Source: an uncultured Lachnospiraceae bacterium
GTDB lineage: Bacteria > Bacillota > Clostridia > Lachnospirales > Lachnospiraceae
Length of the DNA: 64,000 nt
Direction: 5' to 3'
NCBI GenBank assembly: GCA_944384125.1
Contig: CALWSF010000010.1
Span: 1 to 64,000 of the forward strand
A program made the position numbers and the translations under genes. The notes below the pieces were generated by a model. It had not been told where the DNA came from and searched no databases. It saw only the letters and a program-made list of their open reading frames with translations. This document shows positions 26,828 through 62,739 of this stretch, piece by piece; positions within the stretch are counted from its first letter, which is position 1, and each line of letters begins with the position of its first letter.

Positions 26828-26854
26828 GCAATACGGCCTGTTTTGAACGAAAAA

Positions 26855-26887
26855 AACCGCTGTCTAAGCCCTCGCTTTGCAGCGGTT
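26855..26887. terminator. Terminator between the HPr-like gene and thiI
   Basis: AACCGCTG (26855-26862) pairs with CAGCGGTT (26880-26887). A run of A before and T-rich sequence after the stem make it usable in both directions. Confidence 0.7.
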
Positions 26888-26922
26888 CTTTCTTTATTAA
26901 GACATCCTCCGGCGAATATTTT

Positions 26923-28101
26923 CTAGCATCTGATAATCTCTGTCGTCTCAATCGCCGTTTTCATAAGCTCATCAATCTTTTCCTCCAGATTTTTCTCGGA
27001 TTTTTCAATCCCCGCAAGATTGGGCCTTGTCACAGGATGTTTGGCGACGAAAATTGTGCAGCAGTCCTCATAAGGCTCTATGGAAGTCTCATAGGTTCCT
27101 ATTTTCTGAGCGATATCCACAATATCCTGTTTGTCAAAGCCGATGACGGGACGGAATACCGGAAGTGTGCACACTGCATTGGTTACCGCCAGAGAATGAA
27201 CTGTCTGTGAGGCTACCTGACCAATGCTCTCTCCTGTGATGAGTCCCAGGCACTGATCCCGCTTTGCCAGTTCCTCCGCAATCTTCATCATATAGCGGCG
27301 CATGATAATGGTAAGCTCCTCATGGGGGCATTTATCATATATATAAAGCTGAATATCTGTGAAATTAACGATATGAAGACGAATCGGTCCCGCATACCTG
27401 GAAACCTGCTTTGCCAGGTCAATTACCTTCTGCTTTGCGCGCTCGCTTGTGTAGGGCGGAGCATGGAAATAGGTAGCCTCAATGGTAACGCCTCTTTTGG
27501 CAATCATATATCCTGCCACCGGACTGTCAATTCCGCCTGACAAAAGAAGCATGGCTTTTCCGTTGGTGCCCACCGGCATTCCGCCTGGTCCGGGGATAAT
27601 CCTGGAATAAAGGTTGATTCCCTTTGCCCGCACTTCCACATTTAAGAGCACATCCGGGTTATGAACATCCACTTTCGTCTCAGGAAATGCCTCCAGAATC
27701 TCTCCGCCCAGCTCCCGGTTAAGTTCCTCAGACGTATAGGGATACTGTTTGTTTGCTCTTCTTGCATTGACCTTGAAGGTAAAGTTTTTATCGGGATACG
27801 CTTCATCTATATAGCGGATAACCTGCTCTTTCAGATCTTCGTATCCGCGATCCTCGATACGCACCAGAGGACAGATAGCGGCAATGCCGAACACACACTT
27901 CAGCGCCTCAATTACCTCGTCATAATCAAACGGCTCGGAGGCATGAGCGTAAATGCGGCCTGACTCCTTGGTTACCGTAAACTTTCCGTCCAGACGCTTC
28001 AGCGTGTGGTGGATATGGGACATGAGAGAATCCTCAAATAAATACCTGTTTTTACCTTTGATGCCGATCTCGGCATATTTTATCAGAAATGACTGAAACA
28101 T
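26923..28101 (-). CDS. thiI: tRNA 4-thiouridine synthetase ThiI
   Basis: Thiolates U8 of tRNA using sulfur from a cysteine desulfurase. 392 aa: N-terminal ferredoxin-like and THUMP domains (to about 170), then an adenylating PP-loop with LLSGGIDSPVAGYM near 185. No C-terminal rhodanese domain, as in most Gram-positives. The cysteine desulfurase gene lies immediately upstream (about 50 bases), giving a complete sulfur relay unit. The 26855-26887 hairpin follows. Confidence 0.96.
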   Translation of the reverse strand: MFQSFLIKYAEIGIKGKNRYLFEDSLMSHIHHTLKRLDGKFTVTKESGRIYAHASEPFDYDEVIEALKCVFGIAAICPLVRIEDRGYEDLKEQVIRYIDEAYPDKNFTFKVNARRANKQYPYTSEELNRELGGEILEAFPETKVDVHNPDVLLNVEVRAKGINLYSRIIPGPGGMPVGTNGKAMLLLSGGIDSPVAGYMIAKRGVTIEATYFHAPPYTSERAKQKVIDLAKQVSRYAGPIRLHIVNFTDIQLYIYDKCPHEELTIIMRRYMMKIAEELAKRDQCLGLITGESIGQVASQTVHSLAVTNAVCTLPVFRPVIGFDKQDIVDIAQKIGTYETSIEPYEDCCTIFVAKHPVTRPNLAGIEKSEKNLEEKIDELMKTAIETTEIIRC

Positions 28102-49378: not shown

Positions 49379-49774
49379 ATGCGTGACCTGCCCCAGATCT
49401 CCGAAGCCGAATTTGAAGTTATGAAAATCGTATGGAAATATGCTCCCATCAGCACCAATGATATAACAGACAGGCTGATGCAGACTACCAGCTGGAGCCC
49501 GAAAACAATACAGACCCTGATCAAACGTCTTGTGACAAAAGGAGCTCTGACGTATGAAAAGCAAAGCCGGATGTTCGTCTACACTCCAATGGTAAAGGAA
49601 AGCGAATACATCAGCCGGGAAAGCAGCACTTTTCTGAACCGGTACTATGACGGAGATATTACGGCCATGGTTTCCGCATATCTTAAAAACGACAGGCTGA
49701 CTGAAAAAGACATAGCCGCTCTCCGCTCTCTCCTCTCCGGAAATTCAGAAAAAGGAGGGGATTTGAATGACTGA
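49379..49774 (+). CDS. blaI: BlaI/MecI family repressor
   Basis: 131 aa. Winged helix with PQISEAEFEVMKIVWKYAPIS and SWSPKTIQTLIKRLVTKGAL, then a helical dimer domain. BlaI is cleaved when BlaR1 senses beta-lactam, freeing its operators. ATG 49379 has AAGGAGG 7 bases upstream. The end overlaps blaR1 by 8 bases. Confidence 0.94.
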   Translation: MRDLPQISEAEFEVMKIVWKYAPISTNDITDRLMQTTSWSPKTIQTLIKRLVTKGALTYEKQSRMFVYTPMVKESEYISRESSTFLNRYYDGDITAMVSAYLKNDRLTEKDIAALRSLLSGNSEKGGDLND

Positions 49775-51566
49775 TTTCATGGTACATTTTTTAATCTGCA
49801 ATATACTCATCGGAGGCGCCGTCATAATTATCCTGACTGCCAGGCGGATATTCCGGCACGCTCTGTCCGGCCGGATGCGGTATAACCTGTGGTTTATACT
49901 TCTCGGACTGCTGCCCGTCCCCTTTCTTCCCCTGCGCCTGAGCGGATTTTCACAATTTTTCCCCCTGTCTGCAGGTTCGGGCATCTTTTCCGCGCCCAAT
50001 ACGGCTGACGGAAAAACTCCAGGAATAAGCCCCGCCGGACATACGGACTGGATGTATGATTTCACACTCTCAGTAAGCAGCAGGACACCGTCCGCCGCAG
50101 GACTTATTTTATTTTGTATATGGATTTGCGGCACATCTATAGTTGCCCTTCTCATAATCCGGTCTTTTCTCCGTCTGCGTACTCTTGAAAAATCTGCACT
50201 TCCCCTTCAGAACCGGGAGATCCGCTGTCTGTACAGACGCTGCCTTAAGGAGATGGGAATTGGAAGGGATATTCCTGTTCTGAGCACTGCATATCTTAAA
50301 TCCCCCATTATCACAGGATTCCTGAAACCCCGTATTTACCTGCCGATCCATCTGATCTCCGATTACAGGGAGGAGGAAATGCGGTTTATGATACTGCATG
50401 AACTTCAGCATTTCAGACATCACGATTCCATCGCCGGATTCCTGATGAACCTTGCCGCGGCAGTATACTGGTTCAATCCGTTTGTGTGGCTCGCCCTGCG
50501 GGAAATGCGAAACGACAGGGAGATTGCATGCGATGCATCTGTCCTCAGAATGCTTAAAAAGGAGGAATACAGAGCATACGGCAGCACGCTCATTAACTTC
50601 GCCGAAAAAACTTCCCTGTCATCTTTCCCGTTTGCCGCCGGCCTGGGCGGAAGCATGAAGCAGATGAGACAAAGAATATTAAATATTGCATCCTATGAAA
50701 AGCCAACCTTTATAAAAAAAGCAAAAAGCACAGCCGTGTTTCTGCTGACTTTTCTTATTCTCTCCGGAACGGTTCCCTGTCTCTCCTCCTACGCCGGCGA
50801 CGAAGGCCGTTACCGTTGGGACACCTCCTCAGAAAATGTGAGATACGCCGATTTCTCTTCATATTTTGGAAAATATGATGGGAGCTTTGTTCTGTACGAT
50901 ATGAAAAATGATGCCTGGAGCGTCTATAACCCGGAATCCGCCGTCCGAAGAACCTCTCCGGATTCTACCTACAAAATATATGATGCCCTGTTCGGACTGG
51001 AGGCAGGAGTCATCACGTCAGAAAATTCCTTCATGCCATGGGACGGTAAAATCTGGTCCTTTGAAGAGTGGAACACCGATCAGACTCTTGCTTCTGCCAT
51101 GAAATCTTCTGTCAACTGGTATTTCCAGGAAGTGGACAGGCGGCTCCGGATCGCCTCTGTCAGAAGCTTTGTTCATGAAATCGGATACGGAAACGAAGAC
51201 ACAGACAGCGATCTGTCGTCCTACTGGATGGAATCATCCTTAAAAATCTCCCCCGTCGAGCAGGCAGAACTTTTAATCCGACTGTATAACAACGACTTTG
51301 ATTTTGCTTCTGAAAACATTGAAACGGTAAAAGATGCCATCTGTCTCTCCGCCTCCGAAACCGGAACGCTCTACGGAAAAACAGGAACGGGACGTGTGGA
51401 CGGCCAGGATATAAACGGATGGTTTGTCGGATTCGTGGAACAGCCGGACAACACATATTTTTTCACTGCCAATATAAACGCAGACAGCGGCGCTTCCGGG
51501 AGCACCGCTGCAGAAATAGTCATGTCTGTCCTTTCCGATATGAATATATATACGCAGAAGGAATAG
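49767..51566 (+). CDS. blaR1: BlaR1/MecR1 beta-lactam sensor-protease
   Basis: 599 aa membrane sensor. N-terminal four-helix membrane part carries an M56 zinc protease site HELQH (211-215) with Glu212, and a following Glu at DREIACDASVL. The C-terminal extracellular sensor is class D penicillin-binding: Ser400 and Lys403 in SPDSTYKIYDALFGLE, the SVN tract around MKSSVNWYF, and KTG in LYGKTGTGR. Beta-lactam acylates Ser400, the protease then cleaves BlaI. Co-transcribed with blaI by overlap. Confidence 0.95.
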   Translation: MTDFMVHFLICNILIGGAVIIILTARRIFRHALSGRMRYNLWFILLGLLPVPFLPLRLSGFSQFFPLSAGSGIFSAPNTADGKTPGISPAGHTDWMYDFTLSVSSRTPSAAGLILFCIWICGTSIVALLIIRSFLRLRTLEKSALPLQNREIRCLYRRCLKEMGIGRDIPVLSTAYLKSPIITGFLKPRIYLPIHLISDYREEEMRFMILHELQHFRHHDSIAGFLMNLAAAVYWFNPFVWLALREMRNDREIACDASVLRMLKKEEYRAYGSTLINFAEKTSLSSFPFAAGLGGSMKQMRQRILNIASYEKPTFIKKAKSTAVFLLTFLILSGTVPCLSSYAGDEGRYRWDTSSENVRYADFSSYFGKYDGSFVLYDMKNDAWSVYNPESAVRRTSPDSTYKIYDALFGLEAGVITSENSFMPWDGKIWSFEEWNTDQTLASAMKSSVNWYFQEVDRRLRIASVRSFVHEIGYGNEDTDSDLSSYWMESSLKISPVEQAELLIRLYNNDFDFASENIETVKDAICLSASETGTLYGKTGTGRVDGQDINGWFVGFVEQPDNTYFFTANINADSGASGSTAAEIVMSVLSDMNIYTQKE

Positions 51567-51590
51567 AAAAGCGGCATATCGTCCAGAGAA

Positions 51591-53723
51591 TTAATTGCCT
51601 GCAAACCAGCTTTCCAGAACTTCTCTGTCTTTCTCTACCACATATCCGCTTCCGCCCCTGCCCTTTACATCCTCCGTCATACTGACAATGAGTATGGGCT
51701 TTTCTGCATCCTTTTGTGCCGTGTAAACGGCAAACCACCCCAGTTCCGTTCCGGATGTATCCTCCTTTGAAGCCTTGATTTCCGCCGTGCCCGTCTTTCC
51801 CGCCAGCATAACATCATCCCGGCGGGCGCCGTACCCCGTTCCATTCTGATCGTTTATAACTTTCTTCGTCCCCTCCAGTACGCGGCCGGCCGTTTCCTCC
51901 GAAAAGGCATTTTCAATCCAGTACCCGGCTTTCTCCCCGTTCCGATACCTGAGATATGGCTGTATCACGCTGCCCTCATTGCAGAAAGCAGAGTAAATAC
52001 AGGCAATATGCAGAGGATTTGCCAGTACCTGGCCCTGGCCGTAACCGCTGTCGGCCAGCTGTATCTGTGTCTCTATGTTCTCCGTATTGGAATACTGGGA
52101 CGCTGCCATCGTAATTTCAAACGGCAGCTTCTCCCCGAAGCCCAGTTTTGTCAGATAGCTTTCAAGATTTTCAGCACCAATCTTCAGCGCTGCCTTGGCA
52201 AAGTAAATATTATCTGAATAAATAAGTGCGTTTTCCAGAGTAACCGGCTCATATGCGTGAAGCGTTGTCACATAGTAGGAACCCCACGAAGCATCCTTCT
52301 GCCAGCTCAGACCCTCATTCCCGAAATCCTCATCCGGATCGATTGCCCCTGTCTCCAGGCCGATTGCGGCAATAACCGGCTTAAACACAGAGCCGGGACA
52401 CCACACCTGCCTGAACCGGTTATACATGGGTTTATTCTCATCCCCGTTAAGAGCATCCCACTTTTCTGATGAAAGCCCCATAATAAAATCATTATTATCA
52501 TAGGACGGCGTACTGACCAGCGCCAGCACCTCCCCGGTATACGGATTTACCGCCACAGAACAGCCTTTATCTTCTTTAAAATTCTCATAAAGCGAAAGCT
52601 GCAGGTCCGCATCAATGGTAAGCCTTACATCCTGTCCGTGCTGTACGGGAATAAGAGCAAGCTCTTCCTTTTCATTTCCCTCTGAATCCACAATATAAAT
52701 CCGGCAGCCGTTTTGCCCCCTCAGTTCACTTTCAAACAGCCCCTCCATTCCGCTTCTTCCAATTACACTGTCCGATGTGTAGCCCTCTCCCGCATGCTCC
52801 TCCAGATCTTTTGCTGTAACATTCTGCACATATCCGATCAGATGCGCGGCCGCTTCCCCAAGCGGATACTGCCGCACCTGTGTATCGGAAATCATAATGC
52901 CGGGAATCTGAAGCAATTTTTCATGCCTTTCCTTTTCTTTGAGAACCTCTTCCTCCGGCTTTAGTATCATCAGTTCGGTCTCTTCAATGCCCGGAATTGT
53001 CTTAAGAGGCACAAAAGATTCCTCCTTTACCCACTGGGCGGACAGCTTTTTTTCTATGGCCTCCGGCGTCATTTCCAGAAGAGCGGCAGCCTGGCTGACC
53101 GCCTCCTCCCCGTTTTCCAGCTTTCCAGGAACAATTCCGACTGAGGATGCCGTACCCTCCCCCGCAAGGACACGGCCGTTCCGGTCAAGAATATCCCCCC
53201 GCTTTGCCGCGACAGTGGAAACTCTCACTTTATCGGAAGCAGTAAGATTTGGAAAAATCAGAGAGTCACTCCATATGAGCTCATACCCGTCCTCTCCCTC
53301 TGCAAAATACGCCTTATTCTCAAAGCTTATATTCCCTGCAGCCGTATCAAAGGATGTGTGATAGCTTACTGACATTTTCTCCTCATCGTATGACAGAATT
53401 TCCACCTCCATATTATTAAGTTCAATGCCTTCATAAATTGCCGAGTTTCGTTCCATAAAATCCTCACGGCTTATATTTCCCGACGCCTCTGTGTTTATCA
53501 TCTCATACATCTTTTCATACTCTCTCTCCGGAATATACGCCATGTACCTGGTCAGAAGCTCATCCGGCATCTTCCATGTACTCCGGCCGGTCAGAATCCC
53601 TGACACATATATAAAAAGCGCCGCTGCCGCAATTCCTGTCACAACGATTCCCGCCGCCGCTGCCCCACTCCTTAAGAACCTTCTCCTTTTTCTTCTCTGT
53701 CTGTATCTGCTCTCTCCCCTCAT
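51591..53723 (-). CDS. MecA-like class B penicillin-binding protein
   Basis: Membrane-anchored transpeptidase, 710 aa. One helix (about 20-42), an NTF2-like MecA_N domain (about 50-160), a PBP dimerisation domain, then the transpeptidase with SxxK (Ser445-Lys448, CPGSVFKPV), SDN (503-505) and KTG (643-645). The architecture is that of PBP2a/PBP3. Convergent with blaR1, and its promoter holds two BlaI-type sites. A low-affinity PBP induced by beta-lactams is inferred; resistance is not proven. Confidence 0.93.
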   Translation of the reverse strand: MRGESRYRQRRKRRRFLRSGAAAAGIVVTGIAAAALFIYVSGILTGRSTWKMPDELLTRYMAYIPEREYEKMYEMINTEASGNISREDFMERNSAIYEGIELNNMEVEILSYDEEKMSVSYHTSFDTAAGNISFENKAYFAEGEDGYELIWSDSLIFPNLTASDKVRVSTVAAKRGDILDRNGRVLAGEGTASSVGIVPGKLENGEEAVSQAAALLEMTPEAIEKKLSAQWVKEESFVPLKTIPGIEETELMILKPEEEVLKEKERHEKLLQIPGIMISDTQVRQYPLGEAAAHLIGYVQNVTAKDLEEHAGEGYTSDSVIGRSGMEGLFESELRGQNGCRIYIVDSEGNEKEELALIPVQHGQDVRLTIDADLQLSLYENFKEDKGCSVAVNPYTGEVLALVSTPSYDNNDFIMGLSSEKWDALNGDENKPMYNRFRQVWCPGSVFKPVIAAIGLETGAIDPDEDFGNEGLSWQKDASWGSYYVTTLHAYEPVTLENALIYSDNIYFAKAALKIGAENLESYLTKLGFGEKLPFEITMAASQYSNTENIETQIQLADSGYGQGQVLANPLHIACIYSAFCNEGSVIQPYLRYRNGEKAGYWIENAFSEETAGRVLEGTKKVINDQNGTGYGARRDDVMLAGKTGTAEIKASKEDTSGTELGWFAVYTAQKDAEKPILIVSMTEDVKGRGGSGYVVEKDREVLESWFAGN

Positions 53724-53750
53724 AACAACCTCCTGTTCCTCTGTTTTATC

Positions 53751-53772
53751 AAATATTACATATGTAATATTT
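53751..53772. promoter_or_regulatory. BlaI/MecI-type operator 1 of the PBP gene
   Basis: Perfect 22-bp palindrome with the core TTACATATGTAA. It lies downstream of the -10, in the leader. Confidence 0.8.
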
Positions 53773-53799
53773 ATGAGTAAAAAATATATTCAATATAAT

Positions 53800-53830
53800 A
53801 AATGTTACATCTGTAATATTTATCTGTCAA
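53800..53830 (-). promoter_or_regulatory. Promoter and operator 2 of the PBP gene
   Basis: Minus-strand TTGACA (53825-53830), 17 bases, TAACAT (53802-53807). An imperfect palindrome (53800-53821, core TTACA-N2-TGTAA, two mismatched pairs) covers the spacer and -10. The centres of the two operators are 49 bp apart. Confidence 0.75.
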
Positions 53831-53856
53831 GATATGTTTTGCAAACACATTCAAGC

Positions 53857-53885
53857 TTGACTTTTTAAAGAGAATATGATATACA
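53857..53885 (+). promoter_or_regulatory. Promoter of the MATE transporter gene
   Basis: TTGACT (53857-53862), 17-base spacer, TATACA (53880-53885), opening directly onto the structured leader. Confidence 0.55.
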
Positions 53886-53886
53886 T

Positions 53887-53970
53887 GGGAACGTACGGCC
53901 AATTTTCCGGCCGTGCTTCGTTTGATACATTATCGCTAACAAGTGTATGCTTGTTGGCATTTTTTATTTT
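53887..53970 (+). ncRNA. Structured leader, candidate guanidine-IV (mepA motif) riboswitch with terminator
   Basis: First hairpin: AACG-UACGGCC against GGCCGUG-CUU-CGUU (about 53891-53922). A short linker contains GATACATT (53924-53931). The second hairpin GCTAACAAG (53935-53943) / CTTGTTGGC (53950-53958) ends in a T run (53960-53970), an intrinsic terminator. Its loop TGTATG can pair with ATACA (53925-53929) in the linker, giving a pseudoknot that could hold the terminator open or closed. Two hairpins with this layout ahead of a MATE (mepA) gene in Clostridia are how the guanidine-IV class is described. The sequence match is from memory, so identity is likely rather than proven. Confidence 0.6.
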
Positions 53971-54000
53971 ATGAAGAATTGCAGTACAGGGGGATATTTT

Positions 54001-55365
54001 ATGCAGAGTAAATCCAGGGCATCCGCAACGGGAGATTTTTTATCAGGACCTATTTTGCCGGCGTTAGTCCGGTTTGCCTTTCCTCTTATGCTGTCGCTTC
54101 TCCTCCAGGCATTTTACGGCGGAGCGGATCTGGCGGTAGTAGGACAGTTTTCCCAGTCTGAAAGCGTGTCGGCCGTGGCAACCGGAAGCCAGGCAATGCA
54201 GGCAATCACAGCTCTGATTACCGGTCTGACCATGGGCGTAACGGTTCTTCTGGGAAAAGCCATGGGTGCGAAGGATTTTAAGAATGCCGGACAGGTCGTT
54301 TCCGGCCAGATTAAACTTTTTACCGCCATGGCCGTGGCTCTCACGGTAATTATGCTGTTTTTTGCTCCGCACATTGCCATTTTATTAAATGTGCCGGACG
54401 CCGCACATGCCGAGACGATACGGTACATCCGGATCTGTTCGGCAGGCATTATTTTTATTACCGCCTATAATGGAATAAGCGGCATTTTCCGCGGAATCGG
54501 AAATTCCCGCTCTCCTTTTCTTTTTGTGCTGATTGCCTGCATCATCAACGTATTTCTGGATCTGCTCTTTGTCGGAGTCTTTAAGATGAATGCCTCCGGC
54601 GCGGCACTTGCCACCATTATGGCGCAGGCATGCAGTGTTGTATTTTCCGTATGCTACATCCGCCGTCATCCGCTTCCCTTCTCCGTCAGAGAACAGTGGA
54701 GCAATGGAACCAGGACCGTCACAAAAATCCTGCAGATCGGGTCTCCCATCGCACTTCAGGATTTCCTGACTACCTTATCGTTTCTTATCATTACCGCCAT
54801 CATCAACACTCTTGGCGTCACGGCTTCCGCCGGCGTGGGAATATCAGAAAAGCTGTTCGTATTTCTGTCCATTGTCCCAATGTCCTTTATGTCCGCGCTC
54901 TCAAGCTTCGTGGCACATAATATAGGGGCGGGAAACAAAAAGCGGGCCGTCAGCTCTCTGTTTATTGCGCAGCGGATTTCCTTCTGCTGCGGTTTTATCA
55001 TGTTCCTTATGACGTGCTTTGCAGGCGAATTTCTGGCCTCCCTTTTCAGCCGGGATCCGGAAGTAATAACTGCCGCCGCCCAGTATCTCAGGGGAACCTC
55101 CCCGGAATATCTGATGGTTCCCATTACTTTCTGCTTTCTGGGGTACTTTAACGGGAGGGAGCACACTGCCTTCGTCATGACCCAGGGCCTGCTTGCTTCC
55201 TTTTTAATCCGGATTCCGTTTTCCTATTTCCTCAGCCGTCTTCCCGGAACCGGAATGTTTCTCATAAGTCTGGCTGTTCCGTTTTCCGCTCTGGCAAATC
55301 TGGTGCTGTGTGTGATATATTTTATATGGCTGCGCTGCCAGGACAGAAAACAGAGTGCAGCATGA
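54001..55365 (+). CDS. MATE family efflux transporter (MepA-like)
   Basis: 454 aa with twelve membrane helices; GGADLAVVGQFSQSESVSAV and the GISGIFRGIGNSRSP loop are MATE features. Exports cationic or guanidinium-like drugs in exchange for sodium or protons. ATG at 54001, preceded by AGGGGG, is chosen; the frame to 53947 runs into the terminator. The upstream leader suggests induction by guanidine, which would make it a guanidine exporter. Confidence 0.92.
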   Translation: MQSKSRASATGDFLSGPILPALVRFAFPLMLSLLLQAFYGGADLAVVGQFSQSESVSAVATGSQAMQAITALITGLTMGVTVLLGKAMGAKDFKNAGQVVSGQIKLFTAMAVALTVIMLFFAPHIAILLNVPDAAHAETIRYIRICSAGIIFITAYNGISGIFRGIGNSRSPFLFVLIACIINVFLDLLFVGVFKMNASGAALATIMAQACSVVFSVCYIRRHPLPFSVREQWSNGTRTVTKILQIGSPIALQDFLTTLSFLIITAIINTLGVTASAGVGISEKLFVFLSIVPMSFMSALSSFVAHNIGAGNKKRAVSSLFIAQRISFCCGFIMFLMTCFAGEFLASLFSRDPEVITAAAQYLRGTSPEYLMVPITFCFLGYFNGREHTAFVMTQGLLASFLIRIPFSYFLSRLPGTGMFLISLAVPFSALANLVLCVIYFIWLRCQDRKQSAA

Positions 55366-55443: not shown

Positions 55444-56910
55444 ATGGGGAAATTACAGAATTTTTCACTGATAGCTTTAATCGCTTATTTCATGGTGCTT
55501 CTGCTTGCTGTAACGAAAGAAAAGAAAAACAGCAGTGTATTAGATTACTTTTTTGCAGGAAGAACACTGCCATTCTGGGCACTGTCCATCACATTTATTG
55601 CTTCCTGGTGGGGCGCAGGCTCTGCAATTTCCACTGCCGACCTGGCATATGAAGACGGACTGGGCGCATTCTGGTACTATGGCGTTCCCGTTTTGATTTC
55701 CACCTTCCTTATGATTATCGGCTCAAAAGCCATTCGACGGGTCGGATTTTTAACCCAGGGCGAAATGATGCAGGCGCGGTATTCCGGGGCCGCCGCAAAA
55801 GTTCTTTCACTGCTTATTCTGATATTCATGATATTTACCGCGGCTTCCCAGATGGTTGGAATCGGGGATTTTTTCGGCACCTATATGGGAATAAAATATG
55901 AATGGGCCGTGCTGACCGGAACAGGCATTGTGCTGATCTACTCTATGTTCGGCGGTTTCCGCGGAGTGGTTCTGACAGACATCATCCAGTTTGTATTGCT
56001 GCTCTGTTCCGCTCTGATTGTCTTCTTTACCGCAATGAAACAGTCGGGAGGACTTTCGGAAATCCGGGCCGCCGCAGATATTCTGGGCAAAAACAATTAT
56101 ATGAGCTTTACCTTTGGCGCTTCAAAATATATGACCTATGTCATCACATTCGGATGCGCCTGGATGATTCAGGCAAATGTCTGGCAGAGAATCTCAGCTG
56201 CAAAAACCGACAGAGACGCCCGCAGAATGACGGTTATGAGCTTTATAGCCTATATACCGCTTTATCTCATCGTTGTACTGACCGGAATGGCAGGCATTGT
56301 CATATACGACAGAATACCGGAAGGCGGCATCGTAACCGCAATTGTCATGAATTATATGCCGCCTGTTTCAGGAGCACTGGTATTCGTCGGTATTTCCGCA
56401 GCAATCATGTCCACAATGGATTCTCTTATCAATACCGGTGCCATGACTCTGGCAATCGATTTATATCCTTACCGGAGCGATGAGCAAAAAAAGCTGGCTT
56501 TCTCCCGGATCGCAACCCTTCTGGTTACTGCCGCGGCTCTGATTATTTCTCTTAGGATCCGCTCTATTCTGGAGGTTTCCTGGATTGCTTCCGATATTAT
56601 CACGACCGGGGTCTTTGTCCCTCTGATTGCCGGCTTTGTCTGGCGCAGGGGAAATTCCTGCGGCGCCATGGCATCCATGATCGCAGGGTTCATTTACTGC
56701 ACTTATAATCTGCTAATCAGCTTTGGAATTCCTCTGCCTTCTTTCTGGGAACAACAGTCTCCCGCACAGGTTATCTTAGGTGTAAGCTTATCTCTCACAA
56801 TCTATGTGGCAGCCAGCCTGCTGACAAAGCCGGAGTATGAAAAAGCGGATAAATTCATATCTCTGACCAGAAAAGAAGGCAGCGGCAGTCTGTCAGCAGA
56901 CACTCATTAA
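55444..56910 (+). CDS. Sodium:solute symporter (SSS family)
   Basis: 488 aa with 12-13 membrane helices. Family marks: FFAGRTLPFWALSITF, IASWWGAGSAIS, and the GFRGVVLTDIIQFVLLL helix; the sodium-site Ser/Thr in AAIMSTMDSLINTGA is intact. Substrate not determinable. AAGGAG lies 8 bases before the ATG. The last 18 bases overlap the convergent J-domain gene. Confidence 0.92.
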   Translation: MGKLQNFSLIALIAYFMVLLLAVTKEKKNSSVLDYFFAGRTLPFWALSITFIASWWGAGSAISTADLAYEDGLGAFWYYGVPVLISTFLMIIGSKAIRRVGFLTQGEMMQARYSGAAAKVLSLLILIFMIFTAASQMVGIGDFFGTYMGIKYEWAVLTGTGIVLIYSMFGGFRGVVLTDIIQFVLLLCSALIVFFTAMKQSGGLSEIRAAADILGKNNYMSFTFGASKYMTYVITFGCAWMIQANVWQRISAAKTDRDARRMTVMSFIAYIPLYLIVVLTGMAGIVIYDRIPEGGIVTAIVMNYMPPVSGALVFVGISAAIMSTMDSLINTGAMTLAIDLYPYRSDEQKKLAFSRIATLLVTAAALIISLRIRSILEVSWIASDIITTGVFVPLIAGFVWRRGNSCGAMASMIAGFIYCTYNLLISFGIPLPSFWEQQSPAQVILGVSLSLTIYVAASLLTKPEYEKADKFISLTRKEGSGSLSADTH

Positions 56911-62117: not shown

Positions 62118-62534
62118 TTAATGTCCCCTGTGCTTTTCTTTTCGTTTTTGCTGCCTCAGCTCAAATTTCTGCTCTTTTCTGGTCTCCCGCTGCTTTCGGG
62201 TGTTCTGCCTGTGTATGGTTTTCATCTCTTCCCGCTGCAGCTGCAATGCCTGCTGGGACTTTGTCCCTATACCCGTATGACAGGTCTGCTTTCTGGCATT
62301 GCGGAGTCTGCGCTTCGGATTCCTGACATCCGGTTCTGATTCGGCTTCAACAGCCGGACTGAACACAAGCCCGCTGTAATATCTGAGAATAAAATCCCAC
62401 ACTTCATAATCCTTCGGCTCCGCGCCAAAAATAACCTTGTGCACGGATAATTTCCCGTCAGAGATCCGCTCAAAGACCCCGACCCAAAAAGGATCCTCAA
62501 AGTACACTGTCAGCTTTCCGCCTGTTCTGTCCAT
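62118..62534 (-). CDS. yjdF: YjdF family protein (DUF2992)
   Basis: 138 aa, basic. The start KLTVYFEDPFWVGVFER and the block VIFGAEPKDYEVWDFIL are family marks; the C-terminal third is strongly basic (Arg/Lys/Gln rich), suggesting RNA binding. In other Bacillota yjdF is under the yjdF riboswitch, which senses aza-aromatic heterocycles, and such a leader lies directly upstream here. The biochemical role is unknown. Confidence 0.92.
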   Translation of the reverse strand: MDRTGGKLTVYFEDPFWVGVFERISDGKLSVHKVIFGAEPKDYEVWDFILRYYSGLVFSPAVEAESEPDVRNPKRRLRNARKQTCHTGIGTKSQQALQLQREEMKTIHRQNTRKQRETRKEQKFELRQQKRKEKHRGH

Positions 62535-62549
62535 AACAATCCCTCCTTA

Positions 62550-62680
62550 AAATGCGTTATGGACAAAGAACGGACAACCCGGGAGGGGCAGGTTACTTAC
62601 CCCGTCTTTTTCAGACGGGACGGCCGGGCTACCTACCGGCTCTGGCACATTCCAACAATGTGCGTTGCGTTTTTATCTTT
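62550..62680 (-). ncRNA. yjdF-type riboswitch leader
   Basis: About 130 bases upstream of yjdF are highly structured on the minus strand: a GC hairpin CCCGTCTGAAAAAGACGGG, a conserved-looking GTAAGTAACC followed by CGGTAGGTAGCCCGG with its partner CCGGGTTG, and a leading GCAACGCACATTGT segment. These match my memory of the yjdF motif, and the gene below is yjdF. No terminator is seen before the ATG, so control is likely at translation. Ends are approximate. Confidence 0.7.
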
Positions 62681-62739
62681 GTCTCTTTCTTTTATATGAA
62701 GCACTGGCGTGCCGCATATCATCTTTGTCTGCGGTGCCG

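Follow-up and report, generated by a model that had tools for sequence, protein, structure and literature searches.

What kind of regulatory RNA lies between the promoter and the MATE family exporter gene at this locus, and what signal might it read? The window, a stretch of 64,000 nucleotides from an uncultured Lachnospiraceae bacterium, carries directly upstream of the exporter gene a leader for which the initial annotation had proposed membership of the guanidine-IV riboswitch class. The features of the locus are collected in Table 1. The predicted promoter comprises the hexamers TTGACT (53857-53862) and TATACA (53880-53885), separated by a spacer of 17 nt, and was left unlisted by the sequence scan because that scan requires the second hexamer to end in T. 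Transcription is expected to start near 53892-53893, and most relatives with the exact 18-mer described below show, by eye, a recognisable promoter at an equal distance upstream of P1. Three terminator-like sites were detected in 53600-54200 (shuffle mean 0.5), two of which are the hairpins P1 and 2, the latter (53935-53958) forming the terminator together with the ATTTTTTATTTT that follows it. The fold of 53880-53972 reached -32.1 kcal/mol (z -4.61), with 0 of 200 shuffles as low. The terminator loop measures 4 nt in the window and 3-7 nt across 47 aligned leader rows. A ribosome binding site (AGGGGGA, 53988-53994) precedes the ATG at 54001, the likely start of the MATE gene, as opposed to the mechanical ORF start at 53947, which falls inside the terminator. 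The arrangement on which the initial annotation was built, two hairpins of which the second is an intrinsic terminator, placed between a promoter and a MATE gene, was thus borne out.

Table 1. Features of the exporter leader and its gene (window coordinates).
Feature	Positions	Strand	Basis
Predicted promoter TTGACT-17-TATACA	53857-53885	+	Read by eye; 9/12 consensus bases
P1 hairpin GUACGGCC-AAUUUUCC-GGCCGUGC	53893-53916	+	8 pairs, 8-nt loop; scan, folding, relatives
Conserved core CGUUUGAUACAUUAUCGC (linker and start of terminator arm)	53919-53936	+	Exact in 30 genome-contig leaders
5' strand AUACA of linker x terminator-loop pairing	53925-53929	+	Covariation; anti-terminator in nascent fold
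3' strand UGUAU of linker x terminator-loop pairing	53944-53948	+	Covariation; folding
Intrinsic terminator GCUAACAAGU-GUAU-GCUUGUUGGC and U-run	53935-53970	+	Scan, folding
MATE family exporter gene	54001-55365	+	PF01554 E 2.4e-51; TIGR00797 E 7.3e-62

Relatives of the leader are scarce in its own lineage. When 299 genomes of the family were searched at the DNA level, one strong relative besides the window emerged (locus L003 of genome G059, E 1.1e-15), located before a MATE remnant, and the next best match reached E 5e-4 over 28 bases. The leader was found in none of the seven other genomes of the genus, two of which matched only DNA upstream of it. MATE homologues (E <=1e-80) were present in 108 of the 299 family genomes, and inspection of 30 of these loci located the core in the window's own locus only. 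A 28-base pattern with up to three mismatches occurred in two of 391 genomes of the class, namely the window's and G338, a member of another family with an intact MATE gene downstream. The exact 18-mer CGTTTGATACATTATCGC was found in 35 stretches of the genome collection; 30 of these are leaders in Clostridia, each followed by a gene of the same MATE family, and the other five are unrelated, with no such terminator by eye and no MATE motif. Since the scan required the exact 18-mer, the invariance of these bases in the 30 leaders is by construction, and the evidence is carried by the surrounding sequence, in which P1 sits where transcription is expected to start, the terminator reads YAACAAG-UGUAU-GCUUG or departs from it by few changes, and the MATE gene follows. 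In L003 and L097, whose leaders are identical, an intact leader precedes a MATE gene reduced to N-terminal and C-terminal pieces. At L089, an insertion of ~230 bases lies just 3' of the terminator hairpin and is followed by a second CGCCAACAAGTGTATGCTTGTTGGC copy, as if the insertion had duplicated the terminator.

Covariance model R1, built from 28 leaders, gave eight matches in 345 genomes of the order of G338, judged to comprise three MATE leaders, one EamA leader and four chance matches (L129-L132, assessed by eye). The only one of the three MATE leaders that departs from the exact 18-mer, L127, belongs to a family (f58) that is neither the window's nor that of G338, and contributes new information. 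A gapped core pattern was detected in six of 200 genomes of G338's family, four times before MATE and twice before EamA genes (reversed control 0). Among the 31 leader-bearing MATE proteins (30 contigs and L127), 28 align to the window MATE and share 55-76% identity with it (for L071, across just 214 residues); no score was obtained for L081, L099 and L097, where another reading frame or none was picked. Searches of plasmid, phage and viral sequences returned no homologue, and the 4 and 10 viral matches from two pattern searches were judged chance from their context. The least clear of these, L160 (480-580), is a phage contig where a gene is preceded by a long hairpin (GGTAGGTGGG...CCTACCG) that contains GGGTGAGCACCTACCG; this hairpin probably has no relation to the EamA leaders.

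In G819 and G1120, the core of the EamA leader reads CGUUUGAACACCUAUCGC. Of 23 distinct related EamA loci, 15 contain a CGUUUGAACACCUAUCGC or CGGGUGNGCACCUACCG core, with small variants of it in L163, L170 and L174, and a downstream hairpin. The variant core of L147, which pairs at two of three positions, was excluded from the counts, no core was detected in L150, L152, L168 and L173, and L151 and L169 are located at contig ends. L167 keeps CGUUUGA only; its leader contains CGUUUGAGAUUGCCACCG and a different terminator and may be a divergent form. A P1-like hairpin before the EamA core was recognised by eye in L145 and L146 only. R1 scored the intermediate leaders L143 and L144 at E ~1e-5 and matched none of eight GGGUG-type EamA leaders (GGAUG in L163). 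Because R1 misses all eight, kinship of the GGGUG type to the MATE leaders rests on the core columns, on L143 and L144 and on the position of the pairing, which together suggest that the two sets are akin. A search with CGGGTGNGCACCTACCG found it in none of 157 genomes of the class (reversed control 1), a sample that includes G338 and few others of its family, the home of the EamA leaders. The gene association is narrow, comprising two exporter families in Clostridia.

Covariation was evaluated for both P1 and the linker x terminator-loop pairing. In relatives, P1 keeps 90 of 93 pair cells across 19 distinct arm pairs (shuffles <=79), and 96.9% of its cells are paired in composite rows. The alignment contained 47 rows (32 MATE, 15 EamA; 27 distinct composite rows), in which the partner of core positions 7-9 is formed by the three bases that follow the AG closing the 5' arm of the terminator, i.e. 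the last three of five in MATE leaders. These positions are pairable in all 47 rows, compared with a mean of 24.9 and a maximum of 34 in shuffles. Counting distinct strand pairs alone, six of six pair, a result equalled in 17 of 5000 shuffles, and the EamA set alone gives four of four, equalled in 222 of 5000. The MATE rows alone lend the shuffle test no power because every shuffle also pairs (32/32), and support for the linker-loop pairing consequently appears when the MATE group, L127 and the EamA leaders are set side by side. L127 carries a compensatory change from A-U to C-G, and core position 7 in the 15 EamA rows is A-U in 12, C-G in two and G-C in one. L094 breaks one of the five linker-loop pairs, and no more than three of them form in the EamA rows. 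For the P1 and linker-loop helices together (27 composite rows), 92.3% of cells are paired versus 69.1% when shuffled, 46 cells are changed on both sides versus 11.1, and eight of ten pairs show two-sided changes. The covariation score was 0.417 versus 0.119 shuffled, and the true register scored above every slid register, a control that partly favours the true register because the row design placed strands by expected pairing; the compensatory changes are independent of that placement. These changes lend weight to the observation, made in the initial annotation, that the terminator loop is complementary to the linker.

Three further candidate features were rejected. A helix between core positions 1-4 and 14-17 has one invariant pair and one nearly so, the rest lacking covariation support. 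No conserved frame indicates a leader peptide, as UUG-AUA-CAU-UAU-CGC runs into UAA in the window and into CAA in most relatives. A DNA operator GATA-CAT-TATC was dismissed, its spacing differing in L127 and its palindrome being lost in L143 and L144.

RNAalifold on 28 leaders and the fold of the full-length leader both placed a local hairpin, GAUA-CAU-UAUC, where the linker-loop pairing would form. A transcript ending at 53948 is predicted to fold as P1 and a 7-pair linker-loop hairpin, and one ending at 53964 as P1 and the terminator. As modelled, these two alternative folds have the usual layout of a terminator/anti-terminator switch. We consider it likely that the leader (53893-53970) is a cis-acting switch of transcription termination, most plausibly an ON riboswitch, that controls the MATE exporter. 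Transcription would begin at P1. As soon as the linker and the terminator's 5' half had been transcribed, AUACAUU (53925-53931) would pair with AGUGUAU (53942-53948) as an anti-terminator. Unless this pairing were stabilised, the 3' arm of the terminator would displace it and RNA polymerase would stop before the pump gene. A signal, probably a toxic small molecule removed by the pump, would keep the linker-loop pairing in place by binding to the conserved core, allowing transcription to read into the MATE gene. The conserved core, P1, the terminator, the linker-loop pairing and the constant position before MATE and EamA genes are established by sequence comparison, and the two alternative structures by folding predictions; from these we infer the ON direction, a small-molecule ligand and its link to the pump substrate.

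The most likely signal is a small molecule, given that the neighbourhoods inspected, those of the window leader and L066, showed no evident regulator and that the element accompanies the pump gene across families. In BglG/LicT and ANTAR systems, an RNA-binding protein stabilises the anti-terminator. That a protein and not a metabolite plays this role here is an alternative we regard as unlikely: the conserved core does lie in the linker and overlap a terminator arm, as would suit such a system, yet the lack of a noticed regulator around both loci speaks against it, as do the P1 loops, which are unlike the dual hexaloop that is the ANTAR target. A fixed attenuator or stabiliser of the mRNA end, devoid of a regulated state, is very improbable. 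P1 could protect the RNA from its position at the 5' end, but an unregulated terminator needs neither a conserved linker nor a covarying linker-loop pairing. On balance, we lean towards a ligand-responsive leader of a new riboswitch class of Clostridia, ~60-70 nt in length, that turns on MATE and EamA exporters for a toxic compound, perhaps one of the gut. Members of such a class would consist of an 18-nt core and a terminator with a loop that pairs with this core, optionally preceded by a covarying 5' hairpin.

Work on orphan riboswitches that precede exporter genes has revealed toxic compounds in nature that had not been suspected, with guanidine as the model case. The element described here would give a compact sensor for an exporter-linked compound, and a MATE clade and a clade of half-size EamA transporters may export the same compound in Clostridia, many of which are intestinal according to database records. 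In the surroundings of the exporter gene, a sodium:solute symporter-like gene (55444-56910, + strand) lies 3' of the MATE gene. The region 49379-53723 encodes a BlaI-like repressor, a BlaR1-like sensor and a PBP4(5)/PBP2a-like transpeptidase, the gene for the last being divergent from the MATE gene, and TTACATNTGTAA dyads, which we take to be BlaI/MecI-operator-like, were found at 53756-53767 and 53805-53816. Elsewhere in the window, a yjdF/azaaromatic riboswitch (RF01764, 66 bits; 62554-62686, - strand), ordinary and expected, immediately precedes the gene at 62118-62534, which from its position is presumably yjdF.

That riboswitch was the sole match to Rfam 15 in the whole window, none being found at the exporter leader, and a search of the 401 bases around the leader at E <=10 returned five chance-level matches and no guanidine class. 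The Rfam result does not constitute a test of guanidine-IV, because eight MATE loci whose leaders fit the guanidine-IV/Gd4v description were likewise unmatched; these are eight of the 11 loci of alignment A2, introduced below, and belong to 20 loci scanned against Rfam, among which the lone match was a tRNA. In 19 EamA loci, the gathering score of Rfam 15 families was reached by tRNAs and one T-box only. No such motif was found in the main text of the open papers searched, and it may be listed elsewhere. The element is best read as a previously undescribed orphan, riboswitch-like terminator switch for exporter genes that has no match in Rfam 15.

Other MATE genes of the family bear a different leader. 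Of 29 such loci (L036-L064), 24 encode proteins that align to the window MATE at <=49.4% identity, and 11 (L037, L039, L040, L047, L048, L050, L052, L054, L057, L061 and L064) form alignment A2. Their leaders consist of a hairpin with the loop AUCGGA and a terminator with an internal GAUG and a top hairpin, giving a conserved motif UUCAUCGGAGGG ... GCCGGAUAAGAUG-CAGGCUGAAAUGCCUG ... U-run that is unmatched in Rfam where scanned. In the available text of the published accounts, guanidine-IV and Gd4v RNAs both consist of two hairpins joined through pairing of conserved loops (PMC7736828, PMC9788692, PMC11611296, PMC12186494), and the sister leaders are presumably one or the other. Covariance model R2 was built from these same-family leaders as a stand-in and is taken to represent guanidine-IV/Gd4v. 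R2 also matched L055, L062 and L063. At E <=1 it recognised neither the window leader nor those of 16 related loci; L094 has two matches away from its leader (E 0.5 and 0.95), and the one in the window (E 0.09, 26850-26923) likewise lies elsewhere. Conversely, R1 did not match the sister MATE leaders, its weak matches in L054 and L059 (E 0.45 and 0.5) being far from them. From these mutual misses and the gap in MATE identity, it follows that the window leader and the sister leaders are distinct RNAs, carried by separate groups of MATE genes.

The interpretation of the initial annotation could consequently be retained in part: the evidence favours a riboswitch-like, terminator-based leader that regulates the MATE gene in cis, and does not support membership of guanidine-IV (mepA motif). 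Under the guanidine-IV explanation, guanidine would make the loops of both hairpins kiss and thereby block the terminator. The window leader does have a terminator as its second hairpin directly upstream of a MATE gene, and guanidine-IV RNAs are frequent before MATE genes in the text available from PMC12186494 and PMC7736828. In the accessible parts of the same two sources, however, both hairpins associate through their conserved loops (PMC7736828, PMC12186494), whereas the P1 loop differs in length and sequence among 31 leaders (GGG, GAG, TGG, TAG, CAG, AATA, AATG, CATA, TAGG, TGACC, AATTTTCC and others) and covariation supports pairing of the terminator loop with the linker. Furthermore, the leaders found all precede MATE or EamA genes, while sugE is the commonest guanidine-IV gene in the available text of PMC7736828. 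The label is thus unsupported, given the varying P1 loop, the linker partner and the absence of an R2 match, and this explanation is the least probable of those considered, scarcely credible for this leader. That this leader, as a member of a distinct RNA class, nevertheless responds to guanidine or a closely related compound is decidedly unlikely, somewhat less so than a fixed attenuator. Sister MATE genes bear leaders that fit the guanidine-IV/Gd4v description, and small cations are conceivable substrates of MATE and EamA exporters, but the leader-bearing MATE proteins stand apart in identity and EamA is absent from the guanidine-IV/Gd4v genes named in the accessible portions of PMC7736828 and PMC9788692. 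Membership of Gd4v itself was rejected, R2 having no match to window-type leaders. Guanidine-I was not found in the window; it was found at five of six SMR loci scanned (none at the sixth).

Compared with known systems, the new class of exporter leader favoured here differs from the HMP-PP (thiS) riboswitch (PMC6478431) and the HRC-8-4 motif (PMC8632094) in that these accompany other genes in the available text and that the window leader has no match among Rfam 15 families. Guanidine-IV (mepA motif, GGAM-1; PMC7736828, PMC11611296), as far as the accessible text describes it, resembles the window leader in its two hairpins ending in a terminator, its position before MATE genes, the long-range pairing of the terminator loop and an ON-switch logic that would also apply to the window leader. 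It differs in joining two conserved hairpin loops, in place of a variable P1 loop and a linker partner, and in most commonly preceding sugE, unlike window-type leaders with their MATE or EamA genes. The Gd4v motif differs in that its stand-in, R2, does not recognise window-type leaders; according to the available text of PMC9788692, it is likewise an orphan, known mainly from gut sequences, embedded in a terminator and also found before MATE genes.
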